A DNA stretch of 64,000 nucleotides from contig JANWYD010000007.1 in assembly GCA_025057155.1 (NCBI GenBank), forward strand, positions 186,001-250,000, in the 5' to 3' direction. Origin of the DNA: Chloroflexaceae bacterium (GTDB taxonomy: Bacteria; Chloroflexota; Chloroflexia; Chloroflexales; Chloroflexaceae). The stretch's first letter is position 1. The number at the start of each line of letters is the position of its first letter. Under the pieces are notes generated by a model. It did not search any database. It was not told the origin of the DNA and saw only the letters and a list, made by a program, of their open reading frames with translations. Positions 9,498 to 30,505 of this stretch are shown here, one piece after another. A program made the translations under genes and the position numbers.

Positions 9498-10577
9498 ATG
9501 ACGGAAACGCCTGTCTACGAACTGGCCATCATCGGCGCGGGGCCGATTGGCATCGAACTGGCCGTGTGCCTGCGGCGCGCAGGGGTGGAATACCTGCACC
9601 TTGATGCGGGGCAGATTGGCCACACGATGACCTGGTGGCCGCGAAATACGACCTTTTTCAGCACCACCGAGCGCCTGGCCATCGCCGGCGTGCCCATTCC
9701 CAACAACCACCAGAACCGTATCACCGGCGAGGAGTACCTGGCCTATCTGCGCGCGGTGGTCGAGCAATTCGACCTGCCGATCCACACCTACGAGCCGGTC
9801 ACCAACCTGAGCCGTGACGCCGACGGCTTTACCCTGATCACTGCGCCGCTCACCGGCGAACGGCGCTACCGGGCGCAGCGCGTAGCTCTGGCGATTGGCG
9901 ACATGCACTACCCGAACCGGCTGCACATCCCCGGCGAGGATCTGCCCCACGTCTCGCACTACTTCCGCGACCCGCACGACTACTTCCGGCGCCGCCTGCT
10001 GATCGTCGGCGGCAAGAACTCGGCGGCGGAGGCGGCGTTGCGCTGCTGGCGCGCCGGGGCGCGGGTGACGATCAGCTACCGCCGCGCCCGCTTTGACGAA
10101 CGGCGGATCAAGCACTGGCTCCTGCCTGATCTGGAGGCGCAGATCGAGGCCGGAACCATCGCCTTTCTCCCCGAAACTGCGCCTGTGGCGATCCATCCGG
10201 GCTGCGTTGAACTGGCGCGCACCGAAGACGGACGACCAGTGGACGGGCCTCCCCTCATGCACGAGACGGACTTTGTGTTGCTCGCCACCGGCTTTCGCGG
10301 CGATCAGCGCCTGCTCGAGCAGGCGGGCGTGGAACTGTGGGGACCGAATCGCGTCCCGGTCTACAACCCGGAGACCATGGAGACGAATGTGCCGGGTCTC
10401 TACCTGGCAGGCACGGTGGCGGCAGGCATTCAGCAGCGTTATACCATCTTCATCGAAAACAGTCACGAGCACGTGGGGAAGATCGTGCGCGCCCTTACCG
10501 GGCAGTGGCCCGCGGCCCTTGGCGATGTGCCGGCGCGCAGCTATGGGCTGGCCTTTGAGCGGTACGAAGCTAATTAA
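9498..10577 (+). CDS. YpdA-like FAD/NAD(P) oxidoreductase
   Basis: 359 residues, a thioredoxin-reductase-like flavoprotein. The FAD-binding GxGxxG is [12 protein letters not shown] at residues 10-22; a second Rossmann motif, [15 protein letters not shown], binds NAD(P); VLLATGFRG and GLYLAGTVA are the closing FAD contacts. TRX-type CxxC is absent, as in YpdA, which reduces bacillithiol disulfide in Firmicutes. Whether this organism makes bacillithiol cannot be told here, so the thiol substrate is open. The start at 9498 has AAGGGG upstream. The gene is monocistronic: it is followed by a GATTTTG repeat and a hairpin. Confidence 0.85.
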
Positions 10578-10749: not shown

Positions 10750-10890
10750 CAAACAAAAAACGCCGGGCGGATCAGGCGATCCGTCCGGCGTTTCCGCCCA
10801 AAAAAGGGGCGTAGCCGGGGAGGACCAATGTCCCTTTCGCCTCTACCATCAGAGACTACCGGCTACGTCTGGCTATAGAATAGCATGTGT
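10750..10890 (-). ncRNA. Orphan structured RNA with three-way junction and intrinsic terminator
   Basis: On the minus strand a 9-bp stem (CGTAGCCGG / CCGGCTACG, 10859-10867 with 10810-10818) encloses two small hairpins: CTCT/AGAG (10841-10854) and GGAC-ATTG-GTCC (10822-10833), separated by GCGAAAG. Behind it lies a strong intrinsic terminator reading leftwards. No ORF follows on that strand, so it looks like a stand-alone small RNA rather than a leader. TTGACA occurs on the minus strand at 10888-10893, but a well-spaced -10 was not found, so the 5' end is uncertain. It was not recognised as a known RNA class. Confidence 0.5.
10755..10790 (-). terminator. Intrinsic terminator of the orphan RNA
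   Basis: CGCCGGACGGATC-GCCT-GATCCGCCCGGCG read on the minus strand forms a 13-bp stem (one G-U pair), followed directly by TTTTTTG. This is a textbook rho-independent terminator and fixes the direction of transcription as minus. Confidence 0.8.
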
Positions 10891-11047
10891 CAAGCGACAG
10901 ATCCAGTGTCAGCGCGATCACCTGGAGTTGCGAGGGCGCAACCAAACAAGATCGCCGCCCGGACACGACACATGGGAGAGGTTCTTCTGTGTTGCCGGGG
11001 CCACGCACCGGGCGGGTACGGCCTGCCACAGACCCCTGACAAACGCT

Positions 11048-11328
11048 TCAACTCGTGGCCAGTAACTGCTCCAGATCGCCATAGTCGTAGGGCGGACGTT
11101 TGCGGACGGTCAACACATCAATAGCCTGATCCGCTTCGGTAATTGCATAAACAATTCGCCAGCGTTCCAATCGGATACGGCGCAACTCGCGCACGGGCTC
11201 CGAAGGAGCTTCTACAGACTGTTCTGGCGCGGGTTGAGAACGCGCGGTTCCGCCACCGGATGGATACAGCAACTCTTTGCTCTCAGAAGGACGGGGCTCA
11301 TCGGCCAGCTCGGCAATGACCCGCCGTA
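11048..11328 (-). pseudogene. Truncated RelE/ParE-type toxin remnant
   Basis: The C-terminal half looks like a RelE/ParE toxin: VRELRRIRLERWRIVYAITE, then IDVLTVRKRPPYDYGDLEQLL, which carries the catalytic-region Arg residues of the fold. Reading further back in the same frame gives VRRVIAELADEPRPSESKELLYPSGGG, a toxin-like helix, but it is stopped by a TAA at 11329-11331 and there is no good start codon or ribosome binding site. No antitoxin gene is adjacent. It is probably a decayed toxin; a short functional version from an internal TTG cannot be excluded. Confidence 0.5.
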
Positions 11329-11456
11329 CTTATTCCGCGGCAGAACACCGGTCCGCACTGCGCCAGGGCGCACACCCGCTGTCGGCGGACCGGGAGTTGC
11401 GGGGAGGCTGCGCCTCCTCACACCCCTTCAACGGCGCCTCAGGTGTCAATCGTGTC

Positions 11457-30411: not shown

Positions 30412-30505
30412 CGAGAGCGCGTGGGAGTCGAACCCACCGGCGAGGCTCGTCACCCCGCCCACAGGTTTTGAAGACCAGGGCGGCCACCGGGCCACGTCCG
30501 CTCTC
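30412..30505 (-). tRNA. selC: tRNA-Sec (anticodon UCA)
   Basis: 94 bases without CCA. It has the selenocysteine tRNA hallmarks: anticodon loop CTTCAAA with TCA; a 6-bp D-stem with 4-base loop (GTGGCC-CGGT-GGCCGC); a long variable arm with 7-bp stem (GGCGGGG / CCTCGCC); T-arm GTGGG-TTCGACT-CCCAC; and an extended acceptor stem of eight bases per side (GAGAGCGG / GCGCTCTC). Two pairs are non-canonical: G-G at acceptor position 8 and T-T in the anticodon stem. CCA is not encoded. This tRNA supports the UGA reading at 4589. The other sel genes are outside the window. Confidence 0.88.

Follow-up and report, generated by a model that had tools for sequence, protein, structure and literature searches.

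A 64,000-nucleotide (nt) stretch of a Chloroflexaceae genome (contig JANWYD010000007.1, positions 186,001 to 250,000; hereafter the window) carries on its minus strand a conserved three-way junction followed by a terminator hairpin, with no gene downstream in the sense direction. Judging from its sequence and that of its relatives, the element is a new, uncatalogued family of a known general kind, the orphan structured small RNA (sRNA). We tentatively propose that it is a stand-alone sRNA that works in trans, with a protein as its most likely binding partner, an explanation that leads the alternatives without being probable in absolute terms. The RNA is compact and of defined structure, has a likely promoter and operator, and represents a candidate new Rfam family.

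Structure, covariation and upstream sequence

Folding of the minus strand from 10900 to 10740 yielded -70.7 kcal/mol, compared to a mean of -50.8 (standard deviation 4.0; z -5.0) for shuffled sequences, and none of 200 shuffles was as stable. On this strand a three-way junction comes first, then a short linker with a T6 tract, then a long hairpin with a second T6 (Table 1). The original prediction had described a 9-bp closing stem, two inner hairpins of 4 bp, a linker GCGAAAG and a strong T6 terminator behind the junction on the minus strand. Closing stem, linker and terminator were all recovered, and of the two inner hairpins P3 has the predicted length, whereas P2 is longer. The terminator hairpin follows the module after a gap of 15 nt, inside which the first T6 tract sits; this tract is shared with the related genomes G002 and G003 and is missing in G001. 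Although visible in the folds, the hairpin was not listed by a simple terminator scan of the window, probably owing to an A-C mismatch. Hairpin and T-run are also present in G002, G003 and G001, and in weaker form in G032 and G025, giving the RNA a terminator of its own, as in a stand-alone sRNA. An A-run flanks the hairpin on one side and a T-run on the other; because of the A-rich flank, the hairpin may end both the sRNA and the YpdA-like gene that converges on it from the plus strand.

Table 1 Positions of the RNA element and its upstream sequence in the window.
Feature	Position	Strand	Basis
Three-way junction module, 60 nt	10809..10868	-	Fold, covariation, RNAalifold
P1, 9 bp	10867-10859 with 10818-10810	-	Fold
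P2, 7 bp, contains G-U pairs	10856-10839	-	Fold
P3, 4 bp, extendable to 5	10833-10822	-	Fold
J2/3 GAAAG	10838-10834	-	Fold
Linker GCGAAAG	10840-10834	-	Sequence
First T6 tract, 4 nt past the last P1 pair	10800..10805	-	Sequence
Terminator hairpin and T6	10755..10793	-	Sequence and folds
Dyad GGTTGCG-N4-CGCAACT, 18 bp, putative activator site	10926..10943	-	Fixed spacing, site uniqueness
Weak -35-like hexamer, T1 and A4 constant in 6/6	10900..10905	-	Alignment
Extended -10 TGC-TATTCT	10877..10885	-	TGnTAnnnT in 6/6 first modules

Six genomes carry a total of seven modules, as G001 has two in tandem. Compensatory changes among Chloroflexota homologues, which the original prediction had set as its check, were found: 139 of 140 pair cells hold standard pairs, and 9 of the 20 pairs changed on both sides yet are still paired (16 cells), values reached by none of 500 shuffles, with the reservation that the seven rows, among which three hardly differ and two derive from a single genome, represent about three independent lineages, and that the shuffles are not corrected for kinship. 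Control structures slid by one to three columns gave only 0-3 such two-sided pairs, and RNAalifold predicted the identical 20 pairs unprompted. Standard pairs filled 99.3% of cells when the minus strand was read versus 88.6% for its complement, which pairs worse because G-U pairs account for many of the changes tolerated; the RNA therefore lies on the minus strand. While the helices covary freely, the junction letters J1/2 (UA) and J2/3 (GAA) are mostly fixed, and those of J3/1 vary.

Conservation extends upstream of the module. Dyad, -35-like hexamer, 17-bp spacer and TGnTAnnnT align without gaps across the six loci, and in a 131-base alignment ending within the module the first 42 columns are at background (9-15 of 42 identical in the five pairs compared) before identity rises abruptly at the dyad. 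The spacing of the dyad is fixed in five of six loci, and the G001 version is altered but still a dyad. When seven genomes were searched for the exact dyad GGTTGCG-N4-CGCAACY, it occurred at a single place in each of G000, G002, G003 and G032, always ahead of this RNA, and at none in G001, G004 and G025; G001 and G025 have altered versions. The extended -10 of the window and the TGTGC-TATCCT of G002 and G003 both resemble a tRNA promoter of the window, which has TTGACA-N17-TATACT with TGTGC ahead of its -10. With a predicted transcription start at 10870, the centre of the dyad would fall at about -64.5, and this dedicated site in combination with a weak -35 suggests an activator-dependent promoter.

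Tandem copies were found in the window's genus and are likely in the second genus that carries the RNA. The two modules of G001 are 15 bases apart and are followed by a single terminator. In G032 and G025, which belong to the second genus (g11), a further three-way fold begins 4 bases past the first module, and its helices, read by eye, differ between the two genomes in compensating ways. These second junctions were not part of the seven-module covariance model described below, which nonetheless scored them at 27.7 and 22.8 bits (E-values 6.5e-5 and 0.0013; 55,556 bases, unfiltered), compared to at most 15.3 bits for the best other matches in that scoring. The second junction in g11 is thus likely, though not proven, to be a diverged tandem copy.

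Distribution and comparison with known RNA families

A DNA search detected the RNA in 4 of 61 genomes, all of the window's genus and including its own genome. Three covariance models were then used, built from five modules, from seven modules, and with the promoter included. The five-module model gave matches in 7 of 41 genomes, adding the two g11 genomes of the same family; the seventh match was the weak L016 (E-value 0.0045, and 0.022 in a later search), which was dropped, as were L051 and L052 (0.47 and 0.55), because by eye all three are coding-like sequence without this layout. L072 (0.06) was dropped because its fold is not that of the module. When the seven-module and promoter-including models were run on 158 genomes of the class, 6 proved to be carriers, and these belong to two Chloroflexaceae genera; a phylum sample contained the RNA in 3 of 400 genomes, all of the window's genus. 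Across the family, the class, the 400 phylum genomes and 36 chosen genomes, the three models revealed no carrier beyond the six in searches that were prefiltered (13 to 150 candidates scored per genome) and can miss diverged relatives; an unfiltered search of twenty loci around YpdA-like genes likewise added none. The named records containing the RNA are three contigs of metagenome-assembled genomes, labelled Chloroflexales, Chloroflexaceae and Chloroflexi.

In line with the original prediction, which could not match the element to a known class, no Rfam 15 family, glnA and Chloroflexi-1 included, reached its gathering score on this RNA in the window or in the loci L007, L053, L054 and L009. 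A permissive scan peaked at 24.6 bits, below threshold. Its weak, overlapping matches included the sRNAs ar14 (RF02344) and CC3552 (RF01529), which likewise end in a strong hairpin but matched with 23.4 and 24.6 bits against gathering scores of 58.8 and 50. The glnA and Downstream-peptide (glutamine) riboswitch motifs are small three-way junctions; unlike them, the present RNA has no regulated gene downstream, nor an Rfam match. The core of the hammerhead ribozyme consists of CUGANGA opposite GAAA, and the element resembles it in having a three-way junction with GAAA between two stems. A hammerhead was rejected, as CUGANGA is not conserved in the seven modules; in the window a CUGAUG falls within P2, and G001, G032 and G025 do not share it. 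Nor does the RNA fit a type III toxin-antitoxin RNA, in which the toxin gene directly follows the repeats: here a YpdA-like or histidine kinase gene lies downstream, on the other strand. Among orphan structured motifs, Chloroflexi-1 (RF01698) is a candidate structured RNA of the same phylum, listed from Chloroflexus aggregans (PMC2864571); it is an Rfam family that this RNA does not match at gathering score. The HRC-28-1 motif is a structured RNA with a terminator at its end, always opposite the neighbouring gene, but has six stems and is proposed to be a 3' untranslated region (UTR) element (PMC8632094), whereas the present RNA is preceded by a conserved promoter-like block. The papers listed by our literature search included no description of this RNA, and little on sRNAs in Chloroflexota.

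Possible modes of action

The original prediction had left open a riboswitch aptamer or a small regulatory RNA; the evidence supports an orphan sRNA and disfavours the riboswitch. In the explanation we tentatively put first, an extended -10 promoter whose -35 is poor, probably assisted by a factor at the dyad, would start transcription about 2 nt ahead of the module, and the downstream hairpin would stop it, giving a non-coding RNA of about 116 nt, or about 130-185 nt in two-module versions. The working part would be the three-way junction. Fixed junction letters between freely covarying helices point to a recognised shape, and tandem copies, which would raise avidity, point to such a gain; we therefore prefer an RNA that works in trans, most likely by offering a protein a shaped site to bind, for titration or scaffolding, to one that acts through base pairing.

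Several observations weigh against this explanation. The RNA was not found in G004, a genome of the same genus listed as 100% complete, nor in G014, and is therefore dispensable at least at the genus level. Its carriers are only six genomes in about three independent lineages, so that the covariation counts include inherited changes. The minimum free energy fold of G025 lacks the first junction, although its letters are still able to form all 20 pairs, and the dyad is degenerate in this genome. Lastly, the -35 hexamer is weak, and the U-tract behind the second g11 junction is poor.

A base-pairing sRNA, whose pyrimidine/C-rich strand (the 3' side of P3 with J3/1, for example CCUCCCC) or loops would pair with ribosome-binding sites of target mRNAs, is a real but lesser possibility. 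Every one of the seven modules is rich in pyrimidines along this stretch (G001b has one A), the unit is stand-alone with a terminator, and the sub-threshold Rfam matches ar14 and CC3552 are typed there as sRNAs; ar14-like RNAs work through base pairing. Unlike a conserved seed, however, J3/1 changes its letters while J1/2 and J2/3 are mostly fixed, and the C-rich strand is largely paired. None of our computations firmly separates base pairing from protein binding. A more far-reaching explanation, which we regard as speculative and rather unlikely, would make this RNA the founding member of a new trans-acting class, with tandem three-way-junction domains that act as a decoy binding a protein or metabolite and are controlled by a dedicated activator with a once-per-genome site. 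If the RNA is a decoy, its partner would uncover a new Chloroflexaceae regulatory circuit.

The compact aptamer-like junction, the tandem copies and the U-tract close behind would also suit a cis-acting riboswitch or leader that has lost its gene, and in the window, G002 and G003 the co-directional upstream gene would allow a 3' UTR element. We consider either improbable. In all six loci the next downstream gene is convergent, leaving no sense gene to control; the upstream gene of G001 and G032 runs divergently, excluding a 3' UTR in these two; and the promoter-like block lies directly ahead of the module. Even less credible is that the RNA is what remains, without function, of an element that was mobile or repeated. 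This would account for the narrow, patchy distribution and the local duplication, but tandem copies aside the RNA is present once per genome, a YpdA-like neighbour recurs in five of the six carriers, compensatory changes keep the structure, and viral contigs, phages and plasmids contained no match. A small protein gene within the RNA is very unlikely: in every first module an ATG within P2 opens 17-40 codons, but this reading frame was rejected because its start column differs (20, 29, 27), the genera differ in frame and have unrelated peptides, and several of the substitutions that alter residues are the two partners of base pairs that covary.

Gene neighbourhood and further features of the window

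As originally predicted, no sense-direction gene follows the RNA in the window, and its YpdA-like neighbour, a flavin oxidoreductase gene at 9498-10577, is on the opposite (plus) strand and convergent; its TIGR04018 score of 300 bits is below the 340-bit cutoff. The gene order in G001 and G032 is the YpdA-like gene, the RNA on the opposite strand, and HlyD-like and MacB-like genes running away from the RNA, names that we assume from sequence features and not from a family search. A ParE-like tail replaces the HlyD-like neighbour in the window, G002 and G003 and points the same way as the RNA. G025 has no YpdA match, and its RNA adjoins a histidine-kinase-like gene; the likely counterpart of that gene in G032 lies 5 kb past YpdA. 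Given this variation of neighbours among carriers, the RNA is a separate unit that outlives changes around it. A function tied to YpdA was rejected, since G025 has the RNA without a YpdA match and other genomes have YpdA without the RNA, and so was a 3' UTR of the ParE-like gene, a neighbour that G001 and G032 do not have.

Relatives without the RNA differ at this place. In G016 the YpdA-like and HlyD-like genes are adjacent, with no convincing RNA match, and G004 has neither a YpdA match nor the RNA. In G014 a transposase-like open frame lies just beyond the HlyD-like start (last 900 bases of L063), where the sister genome has the RNA, and no module was found.

The ParE-like toxin gene of the window (11048-11330, minus strand) scored just under the PF05016 cutoff and either lacks its front part or has it out of frame; G003 has a longer open copy (L009, 1-357) that runs off the contig end. 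In the genus g9 (L027-L030, L032, L033, L035, L037), the place of the sRNA behind the YpdA-like gene is taken by a tRNA-like sequence that runs in the same direction as the gene and has a clear -10. In another relative, G022, near-identical palindromic units (GGGCACCCGCAAGGGGTGCCC) form an array upstream of the YpdA-like gene (L034, approximately 2640-2980). Elsewhere in the window, a selenocysteine tRNA at 30413-30505 on the minus strand scored above the Rfam gathering score and is preceded by a promoter-like TTGACA...TAGAAT stretch.
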